From positions 2,767,804 to 2,831,803 of the forward strand of contig NZ_CP030032.1 in assembly GCF_003258315.1 (NCBI RefSeq): a stretch of DNA of 64,000 nucleotides, given 5' to 3'. Made by a program: the position numbers and the translations under genes. Shown piece by piece: positions 14,258 to 58,290 of the stretch. The first letter of the stretch is position 1, and each line of letters starts with the position of its first letter. The stretch comes from Bradymonas sediminis (GTDB taxonomy: Bacteria > Myxococcota_A > Bradymonadia > Bradymonadales > Bradymonadaceae). Below the pieces are notes generated by a model. That model made no database searches, had not been told where the DNA came from, and saw nothing but the letters and a program-made list of their open reading frames with translations.

Positions 14258-14545
14258 TTTGACCCATCGCGCTCCCTCCAAACCCCATCGCGCGTGGCTT
14301 CCGAGCGATATTGCGCCACCAAACACACGTTCAACGTCATTTTTGACCCATCGACCGTGCCATAGTGTCACACCTCACGGCGTTTTCGACCTATCGGGCT
14401 GCCAAAAAATCACGTTCGACGTCATTTTTGACCCATCGGCCTGCCAAAAAATCACGTTCGACGTCATTTTTGACCCATCGGCCTGCCAAAAAATCACGTT
14501 CGACGTCATTTTTGACCCATCGGCCTGCCAAAAAATCACGTTCGA
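14258..14545. repeat. 42-bp tandem repeat upstream of gloA
   Basis: Three perfect 42-bp units occupy 14404-14445, 14446-14487 and 14488-14529, followed by a 16-bp partial copy to 14545. A diverged half unit precedes them at 14387-14403, and further degenerate copies of TTTTTGACCCATCG lie at about 14258 and 14325-14357. Each unit has an A6 run and a T5 run 20 bases apart. Because 42 is a multiple of three the array is open in several frames, but none has a credible start or codon pattern, so I treat it as non-coding. Confidence 0.85.
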
Positions 14546-14761: not shown

Positions 14762-15790
14762 TCAACGATTGGTCGTCGACTCCCCACCCACAACCGACAG
14801 CGTCGACGCATCCGCCGGCGCGAGCTTGGCGAGGAATTCGGAGAGCTCCGAGGCCACGGAGCACCGCGGGGCTTGTTTGCAGATGATGGCGATATGGGTG
14901 CCCATATTTCCGCCCAGGTTCGCGCTTCCCAGCAGCATCCACGCGCTGCTCTCGCCCTCGTTCACCTCCTGCTCGCCGCGCAACTGCGGAGCCTTCCAGC
15001 GGCCCTGGGTGCGGCCCAGGCGCAGGATAACATCGGCGTCGTTTTTGCCGAACCACTTCCAGCCGCTGAAGGTGTCGCTCGAGGAGCGATAGTTGAGGGT
15101 TTGCACGAGCTTCGCCGGTTCGTTTGACGCGGGGGTCGCGCTTCCTGTGAGCTGGGCGGGGTCGATGCCTAGCTCGCGCAATTGCGCGGGGTCGAGCTGC
15201 TCCAGGGCGGCCTGCGGGAGCGCGGGGGACTCGGGGTTCAGGAGGTCCAGGAGGGAAGTAAACCCCGGGTCGGCGAATTTGCGAAAGCGCTCCATCTCCT
15301 GGGATGGGTAGACGCGCACCAGATTAGAGAATCGCTCGGCGTAGATAACCGCGTCGGGGCTTGTGCCACCCGGGGCCCGGTGGGTGATGAGGGTCACGCC
15401 GTTTTCGGAGGTCCACTTCCAGGTGTCGAAGTCGAGCGGCACGGTGGACGCGAGCCCACCGGGCAACACGACCTTTTGGGTCTGCACCGCCTCGCTCGCC
15501 TGGGCGTCCTGCGCCGCGGCGCCGTCATCTGCGGGGTCTTGCTCAGCGTCGTCGCCTCCAGCCATCGACTCGGCGATCGCCTTCTCAAATTCGCTCCCCC
15601 CGGCGCTCTGCCCGGAGCGCTTGGCGCCTGTAGCGCCCGTCCCGCTCGCCGACAATTCCTCAAAGGGCGCGCGCGCGTCAAAGATCGGCTGCGCCAGCTC
15701 GCGCGGCCCTTGGTCAGTGCAGGAGACCGCCGCAAAAGCCAACAACGACACGCCCAATAGCTGCGCCCTAAAATAGCGTCGCTTGCTCAT
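14762..15790 (-). CDS. lipoprotein, last gene of the tubulin/VWA operon
   Basis: A 342-residue lipoprotein with lipobox AVSC and a long low-complexity Ser/Gly/Ala/Asp linker to about residue 105. The remaining domain is unfamiliar. It includes DFDTWKWTSENGVTLITH, VIYAERFSNLVRVYPS and a C-terminal part with GWKWFGKNDADVILRLG and SAWMLLGSANLGG. Similar WKW-type strands in the two halves hint at a repeated beta-fold. ATG 15788-15790 overlaps the stop of the upstream gene in an ATGA junction, with a strong AGGAGG site four bases before the start, so translation is coupled. It would put an exported component into the complex encoded upstream. No known family recognised. Confidence 0.75.
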   Translation of the reverse strand: MSKRRYFRAQLLGVSLLAFAAVSCTDQGPRELAQPIFDARAPFEELSASGTGATGAKRSGQSAGGSEFEKAIAESMAGGDDAEQDPADDGAAAQDAQASEAVQTQKVVLPGGLASTVPLDFDTWKWTSENGVTLITHRAPGGTSPDAVIYAERFSNLVRVYPSQEMERFRKFADPGFTSLLDLLNPESPALPQAALEQLDPAQLRELGIDPAQLTGSATPASNEPAKLVQTLNYRSSSDTFSGWKWFGKNDADVILRLGRTQGRWKAPQLRGEQEVNEGESSAWMLLGSANLGGNMGTHIAIICKQAPRCSVASELSEFLAKLAPADASTLSVVGGESTTNR

Positions 15791-18700
15791 CGCTCCTCCT
15801 TAATCTCGCGCTTCTCGACGCCCAGGCGAAGCCATGCGGCCGACAGCGGCAAGAAGACCCACTTGCCCTGCCCGTCGCTGCTTAAGCCCAGCGCCTCGAT
15901 GCTCGCCAGCGGCGTTTGAGAGTCCGTAACGATAGGCACAAACGCCCGCTCGACGCCCCCGGTCGCGCCCGGCTGCGGCGCCAACTCCGCCCAGATAAGG
16001 CTCTGCTCGGGGTCGCCAAACTCCGCGCGCCACCGCGCAATGCCCTCGGCGCTCGGGTCCGCCGGCAACGCCGCGCCGCAGCAAATCGAATCGCTCTCGG
16101 GGTGCAAAAACAGTCCGGCGTCGATGCCCACGTGACGCAACAGAATCGCGAGCAGAAGCGACTGCGACTCCTGGTTGCCGAGGCGGTACAAAAGCGTATG
16201 AACCGGCCCAAAGATCGTCTCCGGGTCGTCCTCGGGGACGAAGGGAATCCCCTGGACAAAATCCGCCAAAAAACGCGCCATCTCGAAGCGCCGTCGCTCC
16301 TCATCGCCCCCCAAACCACCCCCACCCAAAACACCGTCTCGACCAGGCTCCGCCGACCTAAACCCACTTCGCTCGGCGAGCAATTCGGCGAGCGGTGCGA
16401 GCATTTCGTAGTTGTCACAGACGATGGCGTTGGCGAGCTTCTGGAAGGCGAGCGTCGCGGGTAATTTGAGCAACGCGGCGTCGGATCCGGTGGCGGCGTC
16501 GCTGTCCCCATCGGCCTCCCAAACGGTGCACGGAGTGCCCCAGATGCTCTGGTCTTCGAGCATAAACGCGGGGTTCTGGAGCTGCTTTGTAATCCAGTTG
16601 AGCTGCTCGCTAAGTTGGGGCGTATCGGCGTCATAAATCCGGGCGCGCGCCGCGATCTCTCGCCCGATTCCGACGTCACACATCGCCTCTTCGCTCATCT
16701 GGGCGCGCGGCGAATCCTCGCTCGCGCCGACCTCACGCGGGCTGTCGAGCATCCAGCGATGGCGCGTCCAGATAAGGTCGGTGACGCTGCCATCCGCGCT
16801 GAACCAGCAGCGGCCCAAATCGAAGATATCGCCCTCGCCCTCCTCCGATCCGACGCCAAATTGCGCGCGGCGTTTGCCGCCGGTGCTGCTTCCTTCGGGG
16901 CGCAGGCGGCTGTCGAGCCAGGAGAGCGCGCGTTTGCGGGCGAATTGGTCGCGATCGCGCTCGCTGAGGTCCTCGTAATAGATATCGTCGCGCGAGCGGG
17001 CCTGACCGACGCGGCGCCGGCCGTGCAGCTCGTCCTCGTCGGCCCAGAAATCGTAGCGGGCGCGCAGGCGGTCATGATAAAGGACGCGCTCCAAATAAAC
17101 GCGGCAAAAACGCAACAGAAGCTCGACGCCGTCGCGGTGAATCGCGTGGGCCGTGCCGTTGCCGCCGAGATGCGGGTCGTAGAGATAAAAGCCCTCGTCT
17201 GGGCCGAGCGCGTGCTCGGGCGGCGCGTCGGGGTCCGCGATATGAAGGGCGACCTGAATATCGCTGTCGGCGCCGCGATAGATCGACGGGAGCAGCGCGC
17301 GCATCGCCGCAGCGATGAGGCGCGCGTCGCGCAATTGCAGGCGCGGGCAATCGGGCGAGGACACGATCTCGAGCGCCGGGTTCGGGTAGATCCCGAGCGC
17401 GACGGTGCGCAGCGTCTCGGGCTCAATATCATCAAACAAAATGCGCTGGCGCACCTCGTAATGATGGGCGTCGAGCCGGAAGGTCGCCCGATGTTGGGTG
17501 CGGCATTCGACCGCGCCGAGCGACACGGCCAGCGGAAAATCGCCAATAAACAGCGGCTCGGCGTCGACATTATTCTCGCCGGATTTCGCGTTGGCCCGAA
17601 GGGGCGCGACCGCGCCCGGCAGCATATCGCTGGAGCGCATCGGCCTGACGTAGGTGCGACGCCGCGGGCTCGAGATCTCGTCATTAAGAAAGGGCTCGAC
17701 CAAAATATCGTGGGCCGATACCGGGCTCGTCTTGCGCTGCTGGCGCGACTCTTCGGCTGCCCGGCTCACCACGACATAGCGCCCCTTCGCGCTCTCAAAA
17801 ATCCGGCCCGGATAATACAGATGACGCGCGCTGATCTTGTCGGTTTCTTCGAGCACGGTGAGGTTTGTGCGGTCGCGCACGGCGACGCTTGGCCCCGGCG
17901 GGCGCTCGACCTGGGCGACGCGCGGCGGCAGCAAATGCGCGACCGACGAGGGGTCGTGCTCCTTGCCGCTGGCGACCGCTTTGAGCGGCACGCGCACATG
18001 CAAATTCGTCTCGTATTCGTTATGCGCCTCGTCGAGATCGGTGCGCGACTCGTGGAGCAAGAGCCCGGATTCGGCCAGCCGCGAGAGCGTGTGAACCGCG
18101 GTATTTCCAAAAACGTCAAGGATATCGGCGACCTCCAACCAGGTGTCGACAAGGTCCGAGGCAAGATGCGCCTCGACCGCCTGTCCAAAGGGCGCGCGGA
18201 CCACGGGGCGCGGCAAGGTGCGCACGATCTCGGCCAGCGAAGAGTTCGGGTTCAGCTCGGTCAGCGCCATGCGCTCGTCGGAGTCGACCACGCTGATGAG
18301 GGCGATGGGCACCGGCCCGGCGAGTTCGGTCTCACCCTCGGCCGGCAGGTAGCGAAGCCCCGCGCGGCTCAAGTGGCGAATCTCGCGGCGCACCGTGCTG
18401 ATATGCCCCTCCAAAAAGACCACGCAGGCGTCGAGCGGCGACTCGACATCGTATTGCGGCTCCTGGCCAAGCTTTAACTGACGGCGCCCGTGGCGGCGCA
18501 TCGCGTCGCCGCAGCGGTGATAATGCCAGGCGATCCCCAGGCGCTCGCAGGAGGCGATGAGGTCTGCGACCGACACACCGTCGCCCGTCTGTGTGCTGAA
18601 GTCGCTGAGCTGATAAAACAGATGATAGCGCCCCGGTTCGGCGTCCTCCAACGCTTCGGTCCCCGTGGCCGAGGACGCGTCCCCGTAGCCATCGTCGCTA

Positions 18701-20607
18701 TAATCGAAGGTCCGCGTCACCGCGTCGATGCCGCATAATGACTTCAGCCAGGCCGCGGTATTATGCATCGAATCGGTGCCCAGGATCAGGGTCACCGGCG
18801 CGCTCTCCTCGCCCAATTGATTGGTGCCAAGCAGCTCGCGCACCCGCAGCGTTAGCCGACGAAACGCCAATTGCATATGGACCTCGACCGGCCCACAAAA
18901 CGACTCGGCGTCGTCGATAATAATCAGGCCCAGGGTCTTTAAAAACGGCGCAAAAAGCTGCGGCTCATCCAGGATCGACACCACCAATTGGCGAAGGCTC
19001 GTGACGATGACATCGGGGATAATACCCTGGCTAAGATCCGAGATCAGGCTGGAATTTGCGGCTTTTACGCGCAGCGTCCAGCGAAGCGTCGAGGGCTCCA
19101 GGGTCGCGCGCAGCAGCTCGCTAAAGCGCTCGGCGGACTCCTCGTCGCGGGTGACGACCAGCGTCGAGCGGGTGTGGGTGAGCGCATGGTTGAAGGCGGC
19201 GAGCATGGCGAGGGTGGTCTTGCCGCTGCCGTCGGGCGCGAGGATGACCTGGTTGCGATGGCGCTGGCCGGACTCATCCTCAATCCCCGCCCCGCTCACC
19301 CGTCCCAGCTCCAGACTCGCCGCTTTGGGCGGCGGGTCGAGGTGGACATAAGCCTGGCGCGAGAGCGTCTCCAGGACGCTCTGCTGCATATGCGTCAGCC
19401 CGATCTTTTGGGCATCGGGGTTATCCGAATGGCTCGGGTAGATCTCTTCGAGCAAATCCGAGATGAGCCCGCGGTCGGCCGGCCGCGCGGCCGCCTCGAT
19501 CGGCTGAACGACGCGCGGCGCCTCGAAGGTATAGGGCTCCTCGACCAGCAGCCGCGTCTTGAGATCGGCGAGCACGTCGGGCCAGCCCTTGCCCGGGTCG
19601 GGCTCGACCTCGGGGGGCGCCTCGACCTTGGGTTCGGACAAATACCAATGCCCCGACAGGCTCAAATGAATCGCCCACGAGACCCAAAGGATCACGCTGA
19701 TCGAGAAGAACGAGCTATGCATCCGATAGGGGTCGCCCGCGATCGTGCCAAGCCCCCAGGCCAAAAACGGCACCGCCGCGACCAATAGCCAGGACGCCCA
19801 GCTTCGATAGGAGTCATCCGCCTTAAAGAGTTTGCTCGCCCCAAACCAGGTCCGCCAGCTCGCCAGCAGATGGTTATTATGGATGCGCGAGGCGAGGTTC
19901 GCCCCGAGCTCGCTGCCGTAGACGACGCGGATGATTCGCGCGGTCCACCACCAGACGCCAAACCACAGCGCCGCGGAGCTCAGAAGATTCAGGTAGGGAA
20001 AACGCTGCAAGGGCATATACCACTGCATCTCGGGGCGCGAGCCCAGCAGCAGATATTGCCAGGCCGGCGCGCCCTCGCCCAACCCGAGTTGGTAGCGAAG
20101 CAGCGGCTCGGTCAGCCAGGCCAGGCCAAAGAGCGCCGCGACGATCAACCCCGCCCACAAAAACGACGGCCCGATGCTCGCAACGATCACCGAAGGCGGC
20201 TCTTTTGCTTCGGCCTTCTCTTCTTTTTCTTTCGCGTCATCCTTGCTCGCGAAGAGCGCGCCGATCGCATTAATGGCCGCACGTATCGCCCGAATTATGA
20301 GCAAAATCGGATAGATAAGCACATAGACGACGACCACCGGCAGCAGGAACGCCAGCTCCTGCATGGGGATGGAGACCGTGTCGCTCGGGTTGGCGATCAA
20401 CGCGCGGTTGATGCGGCGCTGCATGGCAAAGGCGATCGAAAAGGCGAGCGCGCAGACACCCAGAATCACCAGCGCGGCGCCCATCGGGCCGATATGCTGG
20501 GCGAGGTCGAAGGCCTCGGCCAACCAGCGCCACATCTGGGCGATGAACATGCGAATTAATAAGACCAGCCCCGCGATGAAGCCGTTTCCTCCGGGAAGAT
20601 CATTCAT
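15787..20607 (-). CDS. membrane-anchored SF2-like ATPase with DUF1998-like and inactive transglutaminase-like regions
   Basis: A 1606-residue protein. Residues 1-320 hold about six transmembrane helices. A cytoplasmic RecA-like domain follows with Walker A APDGSGKTT near residue 460 and a DEAD-like Walker B IIIDDAES near 563, plus VIVTSLRQLV between them. The second lobe is poorly conserved and I see no QxxGRxGR arginine-finger motif. Around residue 1146, GFYLYDPHLGGNG resembles the DUF1998 domain of MrfA-type helicases, but the usual four-Cys zinc cluster is missing. Near residue 1477, LGNQESQSLLLAILLRHVGI aligns with the transglutaminase core GDCxDxxxLLxALLRxxGI, with the catalytic Cys replaced. 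A GGGAGG site precedes ATG 20607, which overlaps the upstream gene by 8 bp. Probably an inner-membrane NTPase; nucleic-acid activity is uncertain. Confidence 0.7.
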   Translation of the reverse strand: MNDLPGGNGFIAGLVLLIRMFIAQMWRWLAEAFDLAQHIGPMGAALVILGVCALAFSIAFAMQRRINRALIANPSDTVSIPMQELAFLLPVVVVYVLIYPILLIIRAIRAAINAIGALFASKDDAKEKEEKAEAKEPPSVIVASIGPSFLWAGLIVAALFGLAWLTEPLLRYQLGLGEGAPAWQYLLLGSRPEMQWYMPLQRFPYLNLLSSAALWFGVWWWTARIIRVVYGSELGANLASRIHNNHLLASWRTWFGASKLFKADDSYRSWASWLLVAAVPFLAWGLGTIAGDPYRMHSSFFSISVILWVSWAIHLSLSGHWYLSEPKVEAPPEVEPDPGKGWPDVLADLKTRLLVEEPYTFEAPRVVQPIEAAARPADRGLISDLLEEIYPSHSDNPDAQKIGLTHMQQSVLETLSRQAYVHLDPPPKAASLELGRVSGAGIEDESGQRHRNQVILAPDGSGKTTLAMLAAFNHALTHTRSTLVVTRDEESAERFSELLRATLEPSTLRWTLRVKAANSSLISDLSQGIIPDVIVTSLRQLVVSILDEPQLFAPFLKTLGLIIIDDAESFCGPVEVHMQLAFRRLTLRVRELLGTNQLGEESAPVTLILGTDSMHNTAAWLKSLCGIDAVTRTFDYSDDGYGDASSATGTEALEDAEPGRYHLFYQLSDFSTQTGDGVSVADLIASCERLGIAWHYHRCGDAMRRHGRRQLKLGQEPQYDVESPLDACVVFLEGHISTVRREIRHLSRAGLRYLPAEGETELAGPVPIALISVVDSDERMALTELNPNSSLAEIVRTLPRPVVRAPFGQAVEAHLASDLVDTWLEVADILDVFGNTAVHTLSRLAESGLLLHESRTDLDEAHNEYETNLHVRVPLKAVASGKEHDPSSVAHLLPPRVAQVERPPGPSVAVRDRTNLTVLEETDKISARHLYYPGRIFESAKGRYVVVSRAAEESRQQRKTSPVSAHDILVEPFLNDEISSPRRRTYVRPMRSSDMLPGAVAPLRANAKSGENNVDAEPLFIGDFPLAVSLGAVECRTQHRATFRLDAHHYEVRQRILFDDIEPETLRTVALGIYPNPALEIVSSPDCPRLQLRDARLIAAAMRALLPSIYRGADSDIQVALHIADPDAPPEHALGPDEGFYLYDPHLGGNGTAHAIHRDGVELLLRFCRVYLERVLYHDRLRARYDFWADEDELHGRRRVGQARSRDDIYYEDLSERDRDQFARKRALSWLDSRLRPEGSSTGGKRRAQFGVGSEEGEGDIFDLGRCWFSADGSVTDLIWTRHRWMLDSPREVGASEDSPRAQMSEEAMCDVGIGREIAARARIYDADTPQLSEQLNWITKQLQNPAFMLEDQSIWGTPCTVWEADGDSDAATGSDAALLKLPATLAFQKLANAIVCDNYEMLAPLAELLAERSGFRSAEPGRDGVLGGGGLGGDEERRRFEMARFLADFVQGIPFVPEDDPETIFGPVHTLLYRLGNQESQSLLLAILLRHVGIDAGLFLHPESDSICCGAALPADPSAEGIARWRAEFGDPEQSLIWAELAPQPGATGGVERAFVPIVTDSQTPLASIEALGLSSDGQGKWVFLPLSAAWLRLGVEKREIKEER

Positions 20608-23600
20608 CGTTGCCTCCCGTCGAAGTCGGGTCCTTCGCCGGCTCGTCCTGCCCGGCGTCCATCACCATTTGCTGGGCCGAGGATTCGAGCTCTCGCGAGT
20701 GATAAAGAACGTCCTGATTGATGCTATTTTGCAGGGATTCGTATCCCGTCAGATGATTGATCGGCATGCTCTCCCAGCTCTGGCGACTCTCGCCAGACAA
20801 CGGAAAGGTTCGGTCATCGGGCATGCGCGCGCGATGATGGAAGGATTCGAAGCGGCGCAAATTGCGCAGGCTATGCGGGCGAATGCCCTGCACGAGCGAG
20901 AGCATATACGCGGCGTTTGGCGGCACGCGGGCGACCTGAACCTTGATCCCCTGAAGCTGGGCGGGCGCGCCCTCGGCGTCTTTGGCGGCGTCGAAAACCG
21001 GCTCAAGCCCCGGGTGCAAAACGAGCGTCGAATCGGCCAGCAGATGAACGCCGTCGGGGTCGAGCCCCTCGTAGCCGACGAATTTGGCGCCGAAGCCAAT
21101 ATTGGGCGAATTCGTGATGACAAAATCCACCAGGCGCTCGCGCAGTTCATCCTCAAAGTCAAATTGACGGCTGACCGGGTCGGCCACGATCTCTTGGAAA
21201 TGCGCGCGCGTGAACGCCATGATGCGGGCCGAATCCGACATCGACGCGACCTTTCGCCAATTCTCAAAGCCGCCGACGGCCTTGATAAACTTCTCGAGCA
21301 TCTGGTCGATCTCGCGGGTTCCGCCGACGCGGCCGCGATAATAATCGATCAGGTGTTCCGACGACACGAGCAGGTCGCTGGGCATGCGCGACTGTGAATT
21401 AAAGAGTCGGCTAAGGTCATCCGACGGCTCGTCAGCGCCGCCCGCGTCGAGCTCGGTCATGCTAAATTGGACGCCGAGGTTCTCGGCCCGGCGGGTCAAA
21501 TATTCGCTCTGCAGGTCAACGCTGCGGCGCAGACGACCCGCGTGGCTTAAGTCGCGCAGCACGCGCTCGTAGACCTGGCCGGCGTAATTTCGGGTCGCCA
21601 GCGCCCCGCTATGCGCCAGGCGCGCCTGCATAAACGAGCGAATCGAGGGTGCGCTGGACAGCGGATTCTCACCGCCCTCGACCACCCGCCGCACCGCGTC
21701 GCTCATCTGATTGACCGCGCCCTGAAGTCGCTCGACATAGTCATTCATATGTCGGCGAAGCAGCCAGAAGACCGGCAAAAACACCAGCAGACCGCCGACC
21801 ACCGGGCCGAGCGGGCCCAGCAAAAACTCGGCGACGCCCGGCTCGGCCTGCAGCTCCATGGCCTCGGCGATACCCCACGACAGCGGCGCGCCGAGCACCG
21901 GCGACAAGATCGCCCAGACAAGGAGGCCAAGCTTCATCGCGTCATTATCGGGCTTGTCACGCGCGATCGAGAGCACCTGCTCGCGGGTGGACTGCAGGGC
22001 GTCGGTGCTCGGGATGCTATGGCTCAGACAAATTCGCTCGCTGTCGAGGCGTTGCCTTTCGTGGTCGCGCAGATGATCGCGACCGATATCATGAAGCTCC
22101 TCAAACCCAGCATACGCGCGCTTGAGCCCGCCCTTGCTGGCGTGCTCGTCGATGAGGCGGTCGCCGACTTTTTGCACCACGCTCAGCGTCTGCCCGAGCT
22201 CGCCCGAGGTCTCCCGGCGCAGCGCGTCGACCATCTCGTCCATCTGACCGCGGCGCCGGGTAAACGCGCGCCATTCATCATAAATATGCGCGCGTAGCTC
22301 CTCTTCAAAGGCGTCATCGAAGCGCGATTCGACCAGGCTGGCGCGCGTGTCGGCGTTGACCGCGACGCGCCCGAGAATCCGAGCGGCCATCGCCTTTGCC
22401 GAGCTGCCGGTTTCCTTGGCGAGCGAGCGCACGGGCTCAGCGAGCAAATCCTCCACTTTGGGCGGACTGATCGGCGCATCGCTGACCTTGGGCAGCCCGC
22501 CCTGCTCGCCGCGCTTAATGCGGGCGAGGCTCTGGCGGGCGAAGCGATTGGCCAAATATTCGCGCGCCTTCTCGGCCGGAAACGAGATCTCGTGGCAGGA
22601 GAACGACGCAAAAAGATCATCGCCGCGCGCGGCGGTGGCGGTGCGCCGAAGCCACTTGTCGCTGGCCAGATCGCTGCGGATCTGGAAGCTCAAGAAGTCG
22701 CGGGTCTGGCGCACCGAATCCCAGACCGACAGCACCGCGTTATCGGTCACCCGGCTATTGATGATGACCTGAGGAATGCAGCGCTTGCCACGCGGCACCG
22801 ACTCCACCCAACGCCTAACCCCCTGAATCGATTCGATAATCGCGGCCTCTTCGCCACGATTCTCATTGGGATATTTGCCGCCAAAGGAGTCTGCCGGGTG
22901 CGGCATCCACAAGATCGGCACGACCGAGAGCGCGCGGTCAAAACCCTCGCGGAAGGACTCAAAAATCGGGCCAAAGGCGCGCAATAACTCGGCGTGAACC
23001 TCGCGCAAAATCGTGCGCATCGAGGTCCGCGAAAACGCCTCGCTCATATCGCCGACCACGTAGACGGTCAGCCGCGGCGCCTGGGTCCCCGGCTTATTGC
23101 GATACTCTTTGAGAAACGAAAACTCATAGAGCTCGCGGGTTTGGGAGTTCAAAAGGCTACGCAACTCAAGCAGACCCGGGCTGCGTTGGTTGAGAAATTC
23201 CGAGCCGACGACCCGCCCTGAGTCCAGGTCGTTGATGATATCTTCGGGGCTCAGGCGCACCTCATTAAAGAGCGTTCGCGCCGGCGCAGCCTTGGTCGGC
23301 GAGCCAAAGCCCAGCTCCTGAAGACGCGCGTTGAGCACATGCTGCACCTTATTTTCGGGCGAGCTTTCTTCGACCACCAGACGGCGCAAAAACTCACTGG
23401 CGCCCCGGGGCAGATTGGCATCCCCGCCGTGCGCTCGCTGCGCGTAAGCATCGGAATCATCGCCTCGATTAGCCGCGCTCCGCCGCACAAAGTCCAGCTC
23501 GGCGCGCGCGCCATCGGGCTCTTCATCGAAGGTCTCCGAGATCAACGGGCGCACCAATAACTCGCCCAAAATCTCGAGCGATTGATCGAGCGCGTCGTCC

Positions 23601-24799
23601 GAGTTGGCGCGGTAGAGCGACGCCTTATGCTTCTCGTCGGAGGTCTCGACCCGCTCGCGCTGCAGGTCGACCCACATGCGAATCAGGCCGCGATGGGTGT
23701 GCACCGCCAGCTCGCGCAGGCGTTGCCGAAATTCCTCGCCGTGGGTCTGATGCACCCGCGAGCAATCGTCGTGGTCAAAGAGCCCGAGTCGAAATGGGCT
23801 GACCTCGACCGGGTCAAACTCCACCGCCTCGCCCATCCCGGTGTCACGCGTCGCCCAGCCGGTCGTCTCCCAATCGACCCGAAGCAGGTCGAAGGGAGAA
23901 ATCGGCGCGCTTAGATCATGGCCGCGCGGCAAAAATGGCGCGGGGAGCGTCAACGAGAACTCACGCTCGGGGACCTGAAGCTCCTGCAGCGCAGGCAACG
24001 CACCGGCGGCGCCCAGGCCATAGACCCACTCGGACCAACCCGCCCGCGGGTCTTCGGAGATGCCGTCGAGCAGCCCAGACAGATCCCCGGGCTCAAGCCA
24101 GTCCCGCTCGAATAAGATAGTTTGCTCACCGGCCGCCTGCGCCAATTCCTGGCGCTCGCCGACGGCCTGCGCAAACCATTGCCAGGGCGAGGGGTCGCGC
24201 CCTTCGGCCAGCGCGCGACAGCGACTCACACAGCCGAGCACCGCGCGCGGGCTATGCCCCTGACGGATGCGGTTGACCAACGGTGAGATAAAAAGATCAA
24301 CTTCGGGGTGGCGCTCTTTGACTGCGCGAAGACGCTCCACCGAGGTGATCGGGTCGGGACTAAGCGACTTCCACTCAAAGAAGCGACGCCGCGCGAAATA
24401 GTCCTCGTCGCGCGCGTCTTGCCCCGCCCCGCCGGGCACTTCGACCACGCCGCGGTCGCGCGGAATCGCGACCTGATAGGTGCCATTTCGGTAGCGAATC
24501 AGCCCGAGCGCGCGCAAAATCACAAAATCAAGGGCGAGCGTGGGCAGGTCGCCCTCGCCGGTATAGCGGGCGATCTCTACAAATTGGCGCTCGCTGTCGC
24601 GCCAACGCGCGTCATCGACCTGCGGGTTGGCGCGCAGGTGAACCAGGCGCAGGTTCTTAAGCGATGCCCCACCACCGGCTTGCTCAAGCGTCTCCCAATC
24701 CTCGCCGAGACGCTCGAGCACCGCCAACCCCAGGTCGCCCAATCCCAGCACGATACTCGGCGCGGGATAGGACAAACGCTTATCGGGTCGCTCATTCAT
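20600..24799 (-). CDS. degenerate tubulin-like protein with two membrane helices
   Basis: A 1399-residue protein that begins with SIVLGLGDLGLAVLERL, a glycine-rich Rossmann start like that of the tubulin-like neighbour. It does not keep the GGTGSG signature: the equivalent position seems to be VYVVGDMSEAFSRTSMR. Residues of about 950-1040 contain two hydrophobic helices (LLVWAILSPVLGAPLSWGIA and LGPVVGGLLVFLPVFWLL) flanked by long, probably coiled-coil helices. The C-terminal part includes FGAKFVGYEGLDPDGVHLLA. The start ATG overlaps the stop of the upstream gene (ATGA, 24796-24799). I interpret it as a non-catalytic, membrane-tethered partner of the upstream tubulin-like protein; the homology is inferred from gene order, size and the N-terminal motif. 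Confidence 0.65.
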   Translation of the reverse strand: MNERPDKRLSYPAPSIVLGLGDLGLAVLERLGEDWETLEQAGGGASLKNLRLVHLRANPQVDDARWRDSERQFVEIARYTGEGDLPTLALDFVILRALGLIRYRNGTYQVAIPRDRGVVEVPGGAGQDARDEDYFARRRFFEWKSLSPDPITSVERLRAVKERHPEVDLFISPLVNRIRQGHSPRAVLGCVSRCRALAEGRDPSPWQWFAQAVGERQELAQAAGEQTILFERDWLEPGDLSGLLDGISEDPRAGWSEWVYGLGAAGALPALQELQVPEREFSLTLPAPFLPRGHDLSAPISPFDLLRVDWETTGWATRDTGMGEAVEFDPVEVSPFRLGLFDHDDCSRVHQTHGEEFRQRLRELAVHTHRGLIRMWVDLQRERVETSDEKHKASLYRANSDDALDQSLEILGELLVRPLISETFDEEPDGARAELDFVRRSAANRGDDSDAYAQRAHGGDANLPRGASEFLRRLVVEESSPENKVQHVLNARLQELGFGSPTKAAPARTLFNEVRLSPEDIINDLDSGRVVGSEFLNQRSPGLLELRSLLNSQTRELYEFSFLKEYRNKPGTQAPRLTVYVVGDMSEAFSRTSMRTILREVHAELLRAFGPIFESFREGFDRALSVVPILWMPHPADSFGGKYPNENRGEEAAIIESIQGVRRWVESVPRGKRCIPQVIINSRVTDNAVLSVWDSVRQTRDFLSFQIRSDLASDKWLRRTATAARGDDLFASFSCHEISFPAEKAREYLANRFARQSLARIKRGEQGGLPKVSDAPISPPKVEDLLAEPVRSLAKETGSSAKAMAARILGRVAVNADTRASLVESRFDDAFEEELRAHIYDEWRAFTRRRGQMDEMVDALRRETSGELGQTLSVVQKVGDRLIDEHASKGGLKRAYAGFEELHDIGRDHLRDHERQRLDSERICLSHSIPSTDALQSTREQVLSIARDKPDNDAMKLGLLVWAILSPVLGAPLSWGIAEAMELQAEPGVAEFLLGPLGPVVGGLLVFLPVFWLLRRHMNDYVERLQGAVNQMSDAVRRVVEGGENPLSSAPSIRSFMQARLAHSGALATRNYAGQVYERVLRDLSHAGRLRRSVDLQSEYLTRRAENLGVQFSMTELDAGGADEPSDDLSRLFNSQSRMPSDLLVSSEHLIDYYRGRVGGTREIDQMLEKFIKAVGGFENWRKVASMSDSARIMAFTRAHFQEIVADPVSRQFDFEDELRERLVDFVITNSPNIGFGAKFVGYEGLDPDGVHLLADSTLVLHPGLEPVFDAAKDAEGAPAQLQGIKVQVARVPPNAAYMLSLVQGIRPHSLRNLRRFESFHHRARMPDDRTFPLSGESRQSWESMPINHLTGYESLQNSINQDVLYHSRELESSAQQMVMDAGQDEPAKDPTSTGGNDE

Positions 24800-27700
24800 T
24801 CTTTATCGGTCGTGGTAGGAGCGATGGACGGGTCGGCCGACGGCTTCGAGCGTTTGTTAAACGACGCCCGGTCGATCTCGCCCGAGCGCAGAATATCAAG
24901 CGTTTGCTTGAACTGATCTTCGCCGATGGGGTTGAAGATATTGCGGAAGTCCGAGGCCACCGCGCGACTCTCCTCGGGATGCTCCATCGCGCGCCAACCC
25001 TCGACAAAATAGCGCAGGATTTCGATGGATTGGCGCAGGTTCGACTGCGCAATCCCGTCGGGGAGCCCGGCGGGGTTCGACTCCATCACACCGCCGATGG
25101 TCCGCTGCTCAGCCTCAATCGAGCGCAGCCGCTCGAGCAACGCCTCAAGCGCCTCGGTCATGCGGCTATAGGAATCGGTGAAGTCCTTGAGCTTAAGCCG
25201 CTGCTCCGGCGAGGGCTCACTGCCGTATTGGGTGCGCAATTGGTCGCGGCTTTTGCGCCACTTATAGGGGAGCTTCACGACCTTCTCGAGCACCATCGGC
25301 GCCAGCCCGTATTGCACACCCTGGAGCATCTGCTGATAGCTCAGGTATTTGACGCGCTCGGCCTCGAGCAGGTCCGGCAGGCGCTCAATCGCCTCGGTGA
25401 GCGACTCGCCGAGCTCGGCCAGCCCCTCGCCGTCCATCGCGTGGGTCTGCTGCGGGTCACGCAAGAAATAACGCCCGTTCCGATGAATCAGATACCCCGA
25501 ATGCGCGCCGTAAGGGTCTTTGAGCGTCAGCAGCACGCCGAAGTTCACGATATGCTGGCGCACCAACTCCTGGCGGTGCTCTTCGAGCGCGCCATCGGGG
25601 TCGAGATCGGGCAGCGTATTCTCCCAATTCTTGTCGATATGCAGGACCTTGGCGCGCTTCGCCATGCCCTTGAAGCGGTGATAATACTCGCCCATCTCAC
25701 GCATGCGCCCGAAGACGTACAGCGGCACGTTGAGCACCGCGCGGTAGAAGACGATGGCGTGCGGGTCATGCCACTCGTCGTCGAGCCATTTGATGCCCGC
25801 CGACTCCACGCTGGTGATGGCCGCCTCGATATCCGGGTCGCCGAAATCGCGCGACTTAAGCCCCAAAAAGATATGATTCGGACGCACACCGCCCTGCTCG
25901 CTTCGCGACTCGTCGAAGCTGCACAAGAGCGCGGCCTTTTCGGATTGAATGCGCGAGACTTTATCGCGGAAATACTCCTGATAGACGTCGTCGCCCAGGT
26001 TGATCTGCTCCTCTTCGGGCCGGCTGCGATAGCGCGCGACGGCGTCGCGAATCGCCTGCGCGCCCTTGGCGTCGATCTCCTCCTGATTGCTGCGATACAG
26101 CGCGCGATACTCGGCCTCCAGGCGCAGCGCCTGGTCGAGGCGAAGCCCGTTGCGCCGCGACGGGTCCTGCGACTTGGGATCGCCGCCGATGCGGGTCTTT
26201 AAGAAGCCCTCGATATACTCGAGGAGCGACTCATAGATGCGCTGCAGCTTCGCCGAATTACCGACGCCGGTCTGCAGACTCATCATCCGAAGCACGCCGT
26301 TTAGGCGCGTTTGAATCGGCTTGCTCTGCAGGCTCAACTCGCTAAGCGTGTCGATCTCGTCTTCGTAATAGAAGTCCCACATCCGCCGGCCGTTCTCGAT
26401 CTGCAGGGCCTCGGTGTCGATGATATATTGATTCGCCGAGTCATCGCCCTCGACGCGCAGCCGCTCGTTCTCGCTCTGCTTGGTGCGCGCGAAGGAGTCA
26501 AATCCCTGCTCCAACCCGCGCAACTGCTCGGCCAGGCCGAGCAGGTTATTCCGGAAGGTCGCGCGCTGGGCCAAGAAGGACTTCTGAACCTCATAAAACG
26601 CCTTGGCCGCCTCGTATTCGTAGAGTTGGCCGATGATGCGCTTGAAGTCGTCTTCCTTGATGCGGTCGCCCTCGTCGCGGTCGATCTGCGGCGGCTTGGG
26701 CTCGGCGATGCGCGGGTCTTCGGCCTTGAGCGCGTCGAGCACGCTCAGCGCGGCGTAGCGCTGCGCGGCCAGGTTCACCTCACCGGCGTCGTTCTTCATA
26801 AAGTCGAGGTCCACCAGTTCGCGCATGCCCGGGATCAACACCTTCATGCGCGGGTCGTGGTACCCATTCTCGATGATATTCGTGCCGACCTGGGTGAGCC
26901 GTCGGGTGTTGCTCGACACCACCGAGCGCCAATAGGCCAGGTCGTTATTCTTCTCGTAGGGGGTCTGCTCGATGCCACTCTTCATCTCGTTTTGAATCGC
27001 GGCGTTGGCAAATTTCGTCAGCCCGGGCCACGGGTCGCCGCCCACGGACTCCAAAAGTATCGCCCCGATGGAATATTTCATGCCGCCCTGGCCGAGGTTC
27101 TCGCGCTCCTGGCGCTCCGCGTCGGCGTCGACGTCGACCTTCCCGTCGATCTTCGGGAAGCGGCCAGGCTGATGGCCGTGGCGAAAGATCTCCATAAATT
27201 GCGCCGACGAGCCATCTTCGTGCTCGCAGGCCGCGAGCAGGCGCACGCGCTTTTGGAAGAGTCGGTCGCGCAGGCGTTTCTGGGTCTCGGAGTCGCGCTT
27301 GGCGAAGTCGGCCAAATGGATGGGCGCGGCGTTCTCGCCGTCCATCTCGGTGACCTGATAGAAGCCGTCGGCGTTGCTGCGAAGCGGGCTATAGACCTTG
27401 CCGCCGGGGATGCTCCCCAAAAAGCTCGAGCGCATCAGGCTGAGCGCCGCCGAGCGCGCGCAATAGTCGACGAGTCCGTCGACGGGCACCAGGAGCACCG
27501 CCGAGCCAAAGGAGCCATAATATTGGGTATAACCCACGATCCCCTTGCCCTCGAAATCGTGGGGGACCAGAAAGCGCTGGTGCTGGGTATAATTATCATA
27601 ATCGCCCATCTGCACCTTAAAGAGCGGCGTAAATAGCTGCAGATAGAGGCCATCGGCGGCCGCCTGCACCGGCTTTTTGAGGCTATAGGACTCCGGGCGG

Positions 27701-28545
27701 TCGATAATATACATGAAGTCAAAGGGCTGCTGATACACGCGCCGCTTCGAGGTATCGCCCGGGTTATAATGAAATTCGATGCCGTCTTCGGGGTAAAAGC
27801 GCGACTCCGGCGAGCCCAATTTCATCAGGTGCTCGGTCTCTTTGAGCGCGGCGTACCCGTTGGCGAAGGTGCCGTCTTTATTGGCGCCGGTTTTGTCCTC
27901 GAAGACCGCCGGCATCACCGTGACGCCGATCATCGTGGGCTTGCCAAGCTCCTTGGCCTGGTCGCGCAACGCATAGGCGAGCGGCAAGAAACTACCCGAG
28001 CCCGTGCCGCCGGCGACCGAATAACACATCACGATGCGAATCTCGGTCGTCTGCAGGCGGCGATGCCCGTGGTTGTGATTCTTCATCGACTCAAGCAGGC
28101 GGCGAAAGCGCGCGAGCATGCCCTTATGCTTCATCTGATAATAGGAGCCCAGGCGCGACTCGATGCGAATCTGCCCCGCCCCGGCGGTGTCTCCGGCGCG
28201 GAAGCGATAGTCCTGGGGCACCCATTGGGTGAAATAGTCGTCGGCCTCCAAGAAGAGCTTTCCGCCGGCCAGATTCGCGTACTCTTCCTTCTCAAAATTA
28301 CTGATCAGAAAGGACTCGTCGGCGTGCTCCCGATAGTTTTCGAGGTCATTGATATTGGTATCAATAAACGCGAATTTGATCAGGTCTTTGTAGCGCTCAT
28401 GATAGTCATCCTGGCGCTTAAGATGCTGCGCGACGCGCACGGCGATCTCGCTCCCGCACCCACCGATGCCCACAAACAAAGTGGGGCTCACCATGCTTGG
28501 TTTCGTCAGCAACTCTTCGACAATCGCGCGCTCATTATTCGGCAT
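24796..28545 (-). CDS. tubulin-like GTPase-fold protein (Tubulin_2 type)
   Basis: A 1249-residue cytoplasmic protein. TLFVGIGGCGSEIAVRV at residues 23-39 is the nucleotide-binding first loop, and VMCYSVAGGTGSGS near residues 172-184 contains the GGTGSG tubulin/FtsZ signature that contacts the phosphates. FAFIDTN is the strand typical of the tubulin/FtsZ N-domain. These motifs fit the bacterial family annotated as tubulin-like (Pfam Tubulin_2). About 700 residues of charged helical sequence follow, including two long segments likely to form coiled coils. No membrane helix is seen. It lies 22 bp after the VWA gene and overlaps the degenerate partner by 4 bp. GTP binding is likely; polymerisation is unknown. 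Confidence 0.82.
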   Translation of the reverse strand: MPNNERAIVEELLTKPSMVSPTLFVGIGGCGSEIAVRVAQHLKRQDDYHERYKDLIKFAFIDTNINDLENYREHADESFLISNFEKEEYANLAGGKLFLEADDYFTQWVPQDYRFRAGDTAGAGQIRIESRLGSYYQMKHKGMLARFRRLLESMKNHNHGHRRLQTTEIRIVMCYSVAGGTGSGSFLPLAYALRDQAKELGKPTMIGVTVMPAVFEDKTGANKDGTFANGYAALKETEHLMKLGSPESRFYPEDGIEFHYNPGDTSKRRVYQQPFDFMYIIDRPESYSLKKPVQAAADGLYLQLFTPLFKVQMGDYDNYTQHQRFLVPHDFEGKGIVGYTQYYGSFGSAVLLVPVDGLVDYCARSAALSLMRSSFLGSIPGGKVYSPLRSNADGFYQVTEMDGENAAPIHLADFAKRDSETQKRLRDRLFQKRVRLLAACEHEDGSSAQFMEIFRHGHQPGRFPKIDGKVDVDADAERQERENLGQGGMKYSIGAILLESVGGDPWPGLTKFANAAIQNEMKSGIEQTPYEKNNDLAYWRSVVSSNTRRLTQVGTNIIENGYHDPRMKVLIPGMRELVDLDFMKNDAGEVNLAAQRYAALSVLDALKAEDPRIAEPKPPQIDRDEGDRIKEDDFKRIIGQLYEYEAAKAFYEVQKSFLAQRATFRNNLLGLAEQLRGLEQGFDSFARTKQSENERLRVEGDDSANQYIIDTEALQIENGRRMWDFYYEDEIDTLSELSLQSKPIQTRLNGVLRMMSLQTGVGNSAKLQRIYESLLEYIEGFLKTRIGGDPKSQDPSRRNGLRLDQALRLEAEYRALYRSNQEEIDAKGAQAIRDAVARYRSRPEEEQINLGDDVYQEYFRDKVSRIQSEKAALLCSFDESRSEQGGVRPNHIFLGLKSRDFGDPDIEAAITSVESAGIKWLDDEWHDPHAIVFYRAVLNVPLYVFGRMREMGEYYHRFKGMAKRAKVLHIDKNWENTLPDLDPDGALEEHRQELVRQHIVNFGVLLTLKDPYGAHSGYLIHRNGRYFLRDPQQTHAMDGEGLAELGESLTEAIERLPDLLEAERVKYLSYQQMLQGVQYGLAPMVLEKVVKLPYKWRKSRDQLRTQYGSEPSPEQRLKLKDFTDSYSRMTEALEALLERLRSIEAEQRTIGGVMESNPAGLPDGIAQSNLRQSIEILRYFVEGWRAMEHPEESRAVASDFRNIFNPIGEDQFKQTLDILRSGEIDRASFNKRSKPSADPSIAPTTTDKE

Positions 28546-28567
28546 ATCAATTCCCTATCAGCATCAA

Positions 28568-31366
28568 TTAACCGATCTCCCAACCGGCGAAAGTACCCTG
28601 CATTCTTTCACTATCTTCAAGCACTAATTTATCATTGCGGAAACTGGCGACTTCCAGCTCACCGTCCAAGCTCGGCATATGATTTTCGTAGCGAAACGCC
28701 CCGAGGAATCCTTCCTCATCGGGCACGCCATAGAAGCCATTATTTTTGGAGGCAAAGATATGCGCCGCGGTGCGCGGACGCGCCTTGAGCTGCTCAAAAT
28801 GACCGACCTTATCCAGCACCTTTAAGCTCGTGAGTTGAGCCTGATTCGGGTTGAGCATCAGGCGCACGGTTTCGTCATAGCGATAGTCATTGGGGAGGCC
28901 CAATTTGAGCGGATTCGCCTTAAACCAGGCGCTCGCCCGCGGGCCAAACCCGAAGCCCTTATCGACGATGGTGCGCACCTTGCGCGGCCCGTCGCTCGCC
29001 TTGCTCGTCATGCCCGTGGCGTTCCACTCGAGCAATTCGATATCGGCGACCAGGCTCTTCTTACTCAAGAAGTGGCTGTTGCGAAACATATTATAGACGT
29101 AGAGCAACAAGAGAATCAGCAGCAGCGCCAGCAGCGCCCACAGAATCATGGAGCCCCAGCATTGCCACATGCTCGCGGCTTCGACCGTGATCTCGACCGG
29201 CACTCGAATCGGCTCTTTGGTGCCCGAGGTCGGCGCGAGCACTAGCTCGGTGCGGTAGACGCCGCCGGCGCAGCACGCGTCGGAGGCCGCCCGGACCTGC
29301 AGCGGCGCGCCCTGCCCGCCCGGCGAGAATCGCTTCTTCGCCTTCTGCGCGACCTCGCCGCCGTTACGGATCGGCTCGCCGGCGGCGTCCAAAAACTGCA
29401 GCTCTAAATCGTTTGAGCCCGACGGCCAGGCGTCGCGCTGCTCGCGCGGCGGCAGCAAAATATTGAACTCGGCGTCGGTCTTAAAATTGCCGTCGACCTT
29501 GAGGTTCATCAGGGCGGAGTCGCCGGCCTTGAGGCTGGCGCTGAGCTTTCGCGGGGCGGCGAATTCGTTATTAAGCGAGAACTTCACCGGCACGACCAGG
29601 GTCGGCGGGCGAAGCCCGGAGTCGCTCGGGCGAAACTCGATGCGCACCGCGGTTTCGATATCGCGGGCAAAAGACGAGGCGCCGCAATAGGCGGCGACAT
29701 CGACGCCCAATTTATAGCTCTGCCCGGGGGTGATCTTCTGGGTCTTTCCTTCTTCCACGCCGCTCAGGGCGAAGCTCACGCACTCCGGAACATCCTTGCG
29801 ATTTTGCACGACCAGGCGGCCGGCGGTCGCCGGGAAATTGCCCGAGATTTTAAGCTCCGAAAACTCACTGGCGCCCGGCGTCAACGCGCCGAATTGCACC
29901 TGATCGGGGTTGGCCTCGATGGTTAAGGAGCTGACCTGTAGGGCGTGGGCGGCGCCCTTGATCGCGATGGTCGCGCCCTTTTGCCCCGGCACCGCCAGGC
30001 GCACGATGGGACGGATGATATGGTCGCCTTTGACGAGGTTGGAGCGCTCAAAATGAAAGCGCGCCTCGTCGCCCTGGCGCGCTGCGGGGAGCGCGCGCGC
30101 CGACTTCTCGCCGGGCTGCTGATATTGCACCACCGCCTCGCTCCCCCGACTCGCCACGGCCGCGGTCACGATCGCGCCTTCGTCGTTGACCAGGCGCACC
30201 TCGGCGCAAATCTGGCTGCCGACCTCGGCGTAGCTCAGGCTCGACGCGCCCGCGCGCCCGGCCTTCGCGGCGCACCCGCCGCTGCGCAGTTTCATCTCGA
30301 CGAAGAGGCGATATTCCGGCACCGCGACGACCTTCCAATCGTTGCCCGCGCCCTTGACGCTCACCGTCACCGGCACCGTGCCGGGGCGATAATCCAGCGC
30401 CGCGTAGCGATAGCGGCGCCCGTCCTCGAATTGATGCACGCCGGTATTCGGGGTGCCGATGACCTTTGGTTTATCGCCCTGTCGGGCCGGGTCGATGGAG
30501 AATTCGAGGGCTTTACCCTTATCGGGCGCCACAGCGAGCAGGCGCACGCGCCGCGCGCCCTTATGGGCGGCGAGTTCGTGTTTTTTAGGCGTCAGAAGGT
30601 AGGATTCATAGCCCTGCGAGCGAGACAGCGCGCTGGCGAAGGGCTCAAGAATCCCGGTCGGGTCCTCGGCGTTGACCACGATCGACATGCCGCCGGTGCG
30701 CTCGGCGAGCTGGGCCAAGTCGCGGGTATAGGCGCGCCCGTCGAAGCGCAGCAAATAGAATTTAAAGAGTTCGTCGTCGGCCGATTTAAGGCCTTTGAGA
30801 AAGGAGTCGCCCGAGAATTTCGTCCCGTTGCAGGCGCCGTCGGTCATAAACATCACGACCTGGGCGACGTTGGGCCGGTAGGCTGCGTTGAGCGCCTCTT
30901 TGACCTGGGCGAGCGAATCGGCACATGGCGTGCTTCGCCCGGCGTATTCAGCCAGCGCCCCCTTGAGCGAGAGCTTGTCTTCGAGGGCCTTGCGATTCTG
31001 CTTGAGCGGCGCGATGGGCACGATCTGTTCGCCATCGTTGCTGCCGTTAAGGCGCACCACCGTCGCTTCGTCGACCGAGTCGAGCATGCTCAGGGTTGAG
31101 CGCACCGCGAAAACGGCGAGGCGATCCGGGTCGGCGGCAGGCCCCTCACGCGAGATCTGGCGGCTCATGCTCCCCGAATCATCGATCACGAAGATATATT
31201 GGGCGGTGCGCGCCTGGGCCGACGCCATCTCGTTTTGGCCCTGGGCAGCAGCGCTCCCCACCCCAATGACCCCGAGCAACAACAGTGTCACCCCAAACGC
31301 CGCCCAACGCAGAGTTGGGCGCGCAATAGGTGTTTGCCAGAGGCGACGACCGAATTTTGACTTCAT
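28568..31366 (-). CDS. exported VWA-domain protein with C-terminal membrane anchor
   Basis: From ATG 31366 the protein has 932 residues and a signal peptide ending near SAAAQ; a GTG at 31414 would add 16 residues. The VWA domain begins at residue 57 with YIFVIDDSGSMS, which has an intact DxSxS metal site, and continues with VVMFMTDGACNGTKF. Several beta-rich segments follow (PQVQFGALTPGASEFSELKI-like strands), then one transmembrane helix (MILWALLALLLILLLLYVYN) near residue 740 and a cytoplasmic tail of about 160 residues. The topology places a metal-dependent ligand-binding domain in the periplasm, linked through the membrane to the tubulin-like proteins encoded 22 bp downstream. First gene of the five-gene operon. 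Confidence 0.8.
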   Translation of the reverse strand: MKSKFGRRLWQTPIARPTLRWAAFGVTLLLLGVIGVGSAAAQGQNEMASAQARTAQYIFVIDDSGSMSRQISREGPAADPDRLAVFAVRSTLSMLDSVDEATVVRLNGSNDGEQIVPIAPLKQNRKALEDKLSLKGALAEYAGRSTPCADSLAQVKEALNAAYRPNVAQVVMFMTDGACNGTKFSGDSFLKGLKSADDELFKFYLLRFDGRAYTRDLAQLAERTGGMSIVVNAEDPTGILEPFASALSRSQGYESYLLTPKKHELAAHKGARRVRLLAVAPDKGKALEFSIDPARQGDKPKVIGTPNTGVHQFEDGRRYRYAALDYRPGTVPVTVSVKGAGNDWKVVAVPEYRLFVEMKLRSGGCAAKAGRAGASSLSYAEVGSQICAEVRLVNDEGAIVTAAVASRGSEAVVQYQQPGEKSARALPAARQGDEARFHFERSNLVKGDHIIRPIVRLAVPGQKGATIAIKGAAHALQVSSLTIEANPDQVQFGALTPGASEFSELKISGNFPATAGRLVVQNRKDVPECVSFALSGVEEGKTQKITPGQSYKLGVDVAAYCGASSFARDIETAVRIEFRPSDSGLRPPTLVVPVKFSLNNEFAAPRKLSASLKAGDSALMNLKVDGNFKTDAEFNILLPPREQRDAWPSGSNDLELQFLDAAGEPIRNGGEVAQKAKKRFSPGGQGAPLQVRAASDACCAGGVYRTELVLAPTSGTKEPIRVPVEITVEAASMWQCWGSMILWALLALLLILLLLYVYNMFRNSHFLSKKSLVADIELLEWNATGMTSKASDGPRKVRTIVDKGFGFGPRASAWFKANPLKLGLPNDYRYDETVRLMLNPNQAQLTSLKVLDKVGHFEQLKARPRTAAHIFASKNNGFYGVPDEEGFLGAFRYENHMPSLDGELEVASFRNDKLVLEDSERMQGTFAGWEIG

Positions 31367-31486
31367 TAATTGCAAGATTATGACTTCATCATCTCGAGCG
31401 ACCACACAACCCACTCCACGAAGAATATAGCCCCCACCCTAAAGATATACCGAGTTTATGCAAGCATATAGGGAGGCCGTGGCCGC

Positions 31487-40328: not shown

Positions 40329-40690
40329 AGACCTTCTAGGTCTGGCAAACAACTCCGTTGCTTTCACCGAGGCGCCTCGGGTACGCGGTGCGTTGCATCT
40401 CGCGACGCCTCGACGATTCGCCACGACCACCCCCGCCGGCTCGCCCGGCGGGTGAACCAGACTAACAGCCACAGCCCCCACGCCCCCCACGCCGACCCCC
40501 GCCGGCTTGCCCGGCGGGTGAACCAGACTAACAGCCACAGCCCCCGCGCCCCCGCGCCCCCCACGCAGACCCCCACGCAGACCCCCACGCAGACCCCCAC
40601 GCAGACCCCCACGCAGACCCCTACGCAGACCCCCGCCGGCTTGCCCGGCGGGTGAACCAGACTAACAGCCACAGCCCCCAGCCCTGTCAT
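40326..40690. repeat. REP-like hairpin repeat cluster A
   Basis: Three copies (hairpins at about 40431-40453, 40497-40518 and 40631-40653) of a unit with stem CCCGCCGG, loop CTTGC, stem CCGGCGGG, followed by TGAACCAGACTAACAGCC. They are preceded by the palindrome CCAGACCTTCTAGGTCTGG and a GCTTTCACCGAGGCGCCTCG segment shared with cluster B. No coding region is credible here. The same unit recurs at 42.3 kb and inverted at 58.0 kb. Confidence 0.85.
40563..40634. repeat. 12-bp microsatellite-like array
   Basis: Six head-to-tail copies of ACGCAGACCCCC, one with a single T change, between the second and third hairpin of cluster A. It looks like slippage of the ACGC-GACCCCC spacer that separates hairpin units elsewhere. 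Confidence 0.9.
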
Positions 40691-58010: not shown

Positions 58011-58017
58011 CGCGGGG

Positions 58018-58290
58018 CTTGGCTGTCAGTCTGGTTCACCTCTGCCGGGTAAGCCGGCAGGGGTCGGCGCGGGGCGTGCGGGGGGCGCGGGGCTTGGCTG
58101 TCAGTCTGGTTCACCTGCCGGGCAAGCCGGCAGGGGTCGGCGCGGGGGGCGCGGGGTGTGGCCTTCAGTCTGGTTCACCTGCCGGGCAAGCCGGCAGGGG
58201 TCGGCGCGGGGGGCGCGGGGCTTGGCTGTCAGTCTGGTTCACCTGCCGGGCAAGCCGGCAGGGGTCGGCGCGGGGGGCGCGGGGCGTGCA
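58018..58290. repeat. REP-like hairpin repeat cluster C (inverted)
   Basis: Four units at about 64-bp spacing (hairpins at about 58041-58061, 58113-58134, 58178-58199 and 58241-58263), each GGCTGTCAGTCTGGTTCACC, then CCTGCCGGGC-type stem, AAG loop and CCGGCAGG. On the minus strand they are the same element as clusters A and B. The stem differs by one base pair changed on both arms (C-G in A/B, T-A here). No gene lies in 58011-58409. Confidence 0.88.

Follow-up and report, generated by a model that had tools for sequence, protein, structure and literature searches.

The question raised by this locus is what kind of system is encoded by five open reading frames (ORFs) on the minus strand of Bradymonas sediminis, which run from 31366 down to 14762 of a 64,000-nucleotide stretch of its genome (a single contig of 5,045,683 bases). 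This whole stretch is called the window, and all positions refer to it. An earlier note on the window described the five products as a single inner-membrane complex, in which a tubulin-type switch would be coupled to a helicase-like motor. Judged from the comparisons below, only four of the five genes form the conserved core. They encode, in order, a VWA protein, a Tubulin_2 protein, a degenerate tubulin-fold partner and a membrane protein of YprA/MrfA helicase descent that is probably inactive (Table 1).

A Tubulin_2 protein with a degenerate tubulin-fold partner

The second gene encodes the sole Tubulin_2 protein of the genome. Residues 23 to 370 match PF13809 at 146.7 bits against a cut-off of 27, which places the product in the tubulin superfamily as previously proposed. 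Its T4 loop, GGTGSG (27994-28011; residues 179 to 184), is unchanged in 13 homologues, and no transmembrane helix is predicted. By sequence, the protein is an FtsZl1-family member (Makarova and Koonin 2010, PMC2875224). Tubulin_2 is also found in Corynebacterium glutamicum and Methanosarcina acetivorans.

The protein encoded by the next gene gave no match in a Pfam search. The suggestion that it represents a degenerate partner of the tubulin held up in two comparisons. When core profiles were aligned with hhalign, the partner family and Tubulin_2 were colinear (E 1.7e-5), compared to E-values of 0.29 and 0.19 for controls against the VWA and helicase-like families, respectively. Whole-length alignment of partner and tubulin reached only E 0.03 because Bradymonadales partners carry an extra segment of ~500 amino acids within the fold, missing from members of other families; profiles restricted to the core resolved this. 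In addition, a compact partner homologue of 420 amino acids (L116) was modeled with AlphaFold2 from 9 sequences, yielding a mean confidence of 60, with the first 220 residues mostly well predicted. A Foldseek search with this model returned FtsZ (2vaw) as the top match (E 5.8e-4, prob 1.00) and as the sole PDB match below 1e-3, with tubulins lower in the ranking. Sequence searches of the PDB with the partner and tubulin profiles returned nothing useful. Because the core alignment and the match of the L116 model to FtsZ agree, the protein is, on profile and model evidence, a true but degenerate tubulin-fold paralogue.

What the partner has lost is the GTP-binding loop. No GGTGSG-like loop occurs in the alignment of the partner family, and in the window the T4 position is replaced by VVGDMSE (23039-23059). 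At the N terminus, GLGDLG (24728-24745) is T1-like, and the family has a GxGxxG motif in this part that resembles the tubulin T1 region. A two-helix membrane hairpin is predicted at approximately 21770-21925.

A membrane protein descended from YprA/MrfA helicases

The fourth gene encodes a large protein with four to five predicted N-terminal transmembrane helices. It matches the Pfam family DEAD at 31.8 bits (cut-off 26), with additional matches to MZB (MrfA Zn-binding) and Transglut_core below their cut-offs. When the family profile was searched against the PDB with hmmsearch, MrfA/YprA (6znp) ranked first (E 1.1e-21), matching in two stretches that correspond to RecA1 and to the OB-CON-DUF1998 part. 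The AlphaFold model, built from 7 sequences, has a mean confidence of 49, and only its Foldseek agreement with MrfA was used: the top four matches are MrfA chains. RecA1 is the comparatively well predicted part of this model. By both lines of evidence, the protein is a descendant of the YprA/MrfA (DUF1998) DNA helicases.

RecA1 contains a Walker A motif (GSGKT, 19216-19230) and a motif II (DDAE, 18901-18924), and RecA2 is degenerate. The OB-CON-DUF1998-like canopy, with YDPHLGGNG at 17155-17181, is devoid of a four-cysteine Zn site. The C-terminal region is transglutaminase-like (approximately 16093-16290), without the catalytic cysteine, and is absent in Lujinxingia. A transmembrane protein of another Tubulin_2 operon (G011, locus L107, C20:20789-22285) matches only this C-terminal part, so the pseudo-helicase module seems optional.

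For comparison, 16 canonical YprA proteins of the same phylum were used, one of which is encoded in the genome of the window itself. All 16 retain SGK, DExH, a SAT-type motif III, QxxGR[AS]GR and CxCxxGCxxC. In contrast, motifs III (SAT) and VI (QxxGRxGR) are lost in 22 of 22 aligned members of the family studied here; the motif VI region aligns poorly, which is consistent with loss but leaves some doubt over the exact residues. Only Bradymonadales keep the Walker A lysine, with GSGKT or GAGKS and an acidic motif II (DELH in one) in all six aligned members; in the other families, the lysine is replaced by arginine or missing. The four-cysteine Zn cluster is absent from the window and its lineage, and the only members that still have it come from three other families. 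Since the whole family has lost motifs III and VI, which every canonical YprA compared retains, the protein is best read as a membrane pseudo-helicase, probably inactive, and not as the motor that had been proposed.

The VWA protein, the lipoprotein and the gene layout

The first gene encodes a protein that scores 21.5 bits with the Pfam VWA model, just below the cut-off of 23.8. Its metal ion-dependent adhesion site (MIDAS) is intact (DDSGS, 31169-31183; TDG, 30830-30844) and is retained in every aligned VWA homologue that covers the region. Hydropathy predicts a signal peptide, a periplasmic VWA domain, a single transmembrane helix (~29096-29152, near residue 765) and a cytoplasmic C-terminal domain; a transmembrane helix is found in all homologues. 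The predicted topology of the system follows that given in the earlier note, with a periplasmic VWA domain, a cytoplasmic tubulin and a membrane-embedded partner and superfamily 2 (SF2) protein. An alternative GTG start at 31414 would extend the VWA protein by 16 residues.

The putative lipoprotein gave no match in a Pfam search. Its homologues occur only in Bradymonadales relatives from the window's own family, directly behind the helicase-like gene. It was considered as a core member and rejected because of this lineage-specific distribution, which leaves a core of four genes.

The spacing described previously proved exact: a 22-bp gap separates the VWA and tubulin genes, the subsequent junctions overlap by 4, 8 and 4 bp, and the five products add up to 5,528 residues (given as about 5500). 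The ribosome-binding sites, described as good, are more mixed. They are strong for the pseudo-helicase (GGGAGG) and lipoprotein (AAGGAGG) and fair for the tubulin (AGGGAA), but weak for the partner (AAAGA) and poor for both possible starts of the VWA protein.

Table 1. Coordinates of the five genes in the window and the evidence for their assignment
Product	Coordinates	Strand	Evidence
VWA protein, 932 aa from ATG	28568..31366	minus	Pfam VWA E 3e-4, MIDAS, hydropathy
Tubulin_2 / FtsZl1-family GTPase-fold protein, 1249 aa	24796..28545	minus	PF13809 E 1.4e-42
Degenerate tubulin-fold partner, 1399 aa	20600..24799	minus	hhalign to Tubulin_2 core, structure model, alignment
Probable YprA/MrfA-derived pseudo-helicase in the membrane, 1606 aa	15787..20607	minus	hmmsearch, Foldseek, motif comparison, DEAD E 1.5e-7
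Putative lipoprotein, 342 aa, lipobox AVSC	14762..15790	minus	Homologues confined to Bradymonadales relatives

Conservation across Myxococcota

The distribution of the genes was analyzed in 189 genomes of the phylum. Of these, 45 have Tubulin_2 above the cut-off. The helicase-like gene was called at a threshold of at least 220 bits, with ordinary YprA proteins scoring below 70 bits except for a partial match of 83 bits in G138. It occurs in 25 genomes, all of which have Tubulin_2 (counting G184, where it is a truncated copy at a contig end), and the partner occurs in 23, again all with Tubulin_2. A check for independent occurrence, suggested in the earlier note, gave a divided answer: the tubulin does occur alone, with about half of the Tubulin_2 genomes lacking the other operon genes, whereas neither the helicase-like gene nor the partner is ever found without it.

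Many Myxococcota families share the gene order VWA-tubulin-pseudotubulin-pseudohelicase. Across 16 loci, drawn from Bradymonadales, Sandaracinus-like and other families, the tubulin adjoins the partner, and in 15 of them the helicase-like gene either overlaps the partner or lies next to it. Gene-tree distances correlate at 0.95 to 0.99, and the partner and helicase-like trees have 12 of 13 splits in common. The idea of one conserved unit thus stands for the four-gene order and fails for the lipoprotein, which is confined to Bradymonadales.

Variations on this layout were also observed. The VWA and tubulin genes are separated by ~15 kb in Lujinxingia and by 1 to 22 kb in some other genomes. The Lujinxingia insertion (L064/L065 and L074/L075) contains an opposite-strand frame of ~4,000 codons, which could be either a giant gene or a spurious frame, together with short repeats. 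In G038 and G082, which belong to the window's own family (L091-L094), the tubulin is accompanied by a partner-like gene with transmembrane helices, and a helicase-like gene is absent; in these variant operons, the partner-like gene is followed by a putative MoeA-like gene, as judged by its start. At L124, L126 and L130 (G175, G062 and G004), two VWA-family genes stand in tandem ahead of the tubulin. The only other recurrent neighbors are Ser/Thr kinases.

Relation to known systems

In the main text of a 2010 survey, FtsZl1-vWA operons were described as putative membrane-remodeling systems, in which most of the other genes had no recognizable domain and a diverged P-loop GTPase or OmpA-like protein was frequent, though not universal (PMC2875224). 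The operon in the window is similar in its Tubulin_2 protein with an intact GGTGSG and long C-terminal part, encoded beside a membrane-anchored vWA protein with a MIDAS, and in the recurrence of Ser/Thr kinases nearby. It differs in having no P-loop GTPase or OmpA-like gene among the five genes or the recurrent neighbors, and in adding the degenerate tubulin and the YprA-derived membrane protein. Neither a helicase nor a tubulin-like partner is mentioned in that main text (PMC2875224), and the tubulin-like partner and the YprA origin of the membrane protein appear new in comparison with known FtsZl1-vWA operons. The FtsZl1 partners, mostly anonymous since 2010, can now be identified as a nearly always adjacent tubulin pseudo-paralogue and a membrane protein built on YprA/MrfA, in which a defence-associated helicase fold is reused as a membrane part.

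Like the YprA/MrfA helicases, the pseudo-helicase has RecA1 and the OB-CON-DUF1998 order, and its sequence resembles that of MrfA. Unlike them, it has N-terminal transmembrane helices, a transglutaminase-like C-terminal region and a linkage to Tubulin_2, and it lacks motifs III and VI and, in the window's lineage, the Zn cluster. The words transmembrane, tubulin and vWA do not occur in the main text of a 2025 survey of the YprA family (PMC12458937). As for FtsZ and tubulin, the partner has their fold, and one active-looking and one degenerate tubulin are encoded by a conserved pair of genes, as would be expected of an alpha-beta heterodimer; unlike them, the partner lacks GGTGSG and contains a membrane hairpin. 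In Synechocystis (sll0445-sll0447), Tubulin_2 likewise clusters with other poorly known proteins, but these neighbors are annotated as FtsA-like and DivIC-like, and no YprA-like protein is reported (PMC9880817). The operon also differs from MoxR-vWA systems, as no match to the MoxR AAA+ ATPase was found among its genes or in the upstream kinase.

Proposed mechanism and alternative explanations

We read the operon, with moderate confidence, as a scaffold in the inner membrane that is switched by GTP and coupled to a VWA sensor in the periplasm. The Tubulin_2 protein, with its fold and GTP loop read from the sequence, would bind GTP and assemble in the cytoplasm, and its GTP state may switch the assembly. 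The degenerate tubulin, predicted to be unable to bind GTP in the usual way, would serve as partner and as membrane anchor through its hairpin. Given its fold, the loss of GGTGSG and its co-inheritance with the Tubulin_2 gene, it might cap or alternate with Tubulin_2 in a hetero-assembly at the inner membrane. The pseudo-helicase would form a multi-pass membrane platform, whose YprA/MrfA canopy may bind nucleic acid or a partner protein without translocation. Finally, the VWA domain may sense or grip a periplasmic ligand through its metal site, with the single transmembrane helix relaying its state to the cytoplasmic assembly. Rather than in defence or division, the scaffold would most likely be used to organize an apparatus of the envelope or cell surface (for motility, pili or membrane shape). 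These identities open direct tests, namely of co-assembly of the tubulin pair and of DNA binding by the pseudo-helicase, and cultured relatives such as Lujinxingia vulgaris exist.

Several observations weigh against the scaffold. The hypergeometric p-values for co-occurrence (5e-17 for the helicase-like gene and Tubulin_2, 3e-15 for the partner and Tubulin_2, 2e-19 for the helicase-like gene and the partner) are overstated, as related genomes are non-independent samples. The operon is split in G119 and G153, where VWA-tubulin and the helicase-like gene lie at separate loci. The Bradymonadales GSGKT could still bind ATP, both AlphaFold models are shallow with low mean confidence, and the sll0445 phenotype (see below) may not transfer, given the different partners in the Synechocystis operon.

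As for the role of such a scaffold, surface motility or pili would, by analogy, be the best lead. A specific version of the scaffold, in which the tubulin positions or regulates type IV pili in these predatory bacteria, is a tentative possibility. The only lead from experiment comes from Synechocystis, where a Tubulin_2 mutant (sll0445) is impaired in phototaxis, and Sll0445 co-fractionates with pilus assembly proteins (PMC9880817); its transcription unit has a predicted CRP site (PMC2633013). In addition, Bradymonadales use type IV pili to attach to prey (PMC7460792). However, the conserved operon contains no pilus gene, many Myxococcota are without the operon, and Tubulin_2 extends to C. glutamicum and M. 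acetivorans. We regard as rather unlikely a bolder version, in which a two-component, membrane-bound hetero-polymer of a GTP-binding tubulin and a membrane-inserted pseudo-subunit links the periplasmic VWA receptor to a pseudo-helicase that tethers nucleic acid (chromosome or RNA) to the inner membrane, forming an envelope-to-nucleoid cytoskeletal bridge.

Two further explanations were weighed. In Bradymonadales, an ATP-hydrolyzing SF2 protein could move DNA at the envelope under control of the tubulin, consistent with the Walker A and acidic motif II in all six aligned members and with the comparatively well predicted RecA1. This active motor was rejected on the motif comparison with the 16 canonical paralogues and seems distinctly improbable: Bradymonadales, too, lack motif III and motif VI (the latter with the arginine finger) as well as the Zn cluster, and elsewhere the operon persists although the Walker A lysine has become arginine or disappeared. 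The other explanation, an anti-phage or conflict system in which a tubulin-like sensor and the membrane VWA protein would be connected to a YprA-family helicase, draws on the central place of YprA-family helicases in the DISARM (DrmAB), Druantia, ARMADA and BRIGADE defence systems (PMC12458937) and on the patchy distribution (25 of 189 genomes). The defence role raised in the earlier note is nevertheless disfavored, and we consider it very unlikely. None of the five proteins matched a PADLOC family above chance in a 2023 copy of the database, which probably lacks ARMADA, BRIGADE and TALON models. The operon has no nuclease or methylase and none of the partner genes of DISARM, Druantia, ARMADA, BRIGADE or TALON, and the catalytic motifs of active YprA helicases are gone. 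Moreover, its neighbors in the window are housekeeping genes (lysyl-tRNA synthetase, FtsK), the gene trees are mutually concordant, and neither the 72,556 plasmids nor the 50,697 phages searched contain a homologue of the partner.

Other features of the window

A histidine kinase gene (31552-33462) was considered as a sixth member of the operon and dropped, as it has no homologue at the loci of relatives. Promoter and terminator scans gave results no better than chance, and an Rfam scan of the window found no RNA family.

The window also contains several tandem repeats. Directly downstream of the operon lies a 42-bp repeat in 5.2 copies (14326-14545), the unit of which forms further arrays at ~390 kb and ~399 kb of the genome. 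Repeats of 64 to 66 bp at 40421-40684 and 58011-58286 have a common core, TGGTTCACCYGCCGGGC, that is almost restricted to this genome region. GAC/ACC-rich tandem repeats with a period of 18 to 60 bp are located at 45249-45367, 46517-46664 and 54628-54769, the first two of which lie within putative lipoprotein genes.

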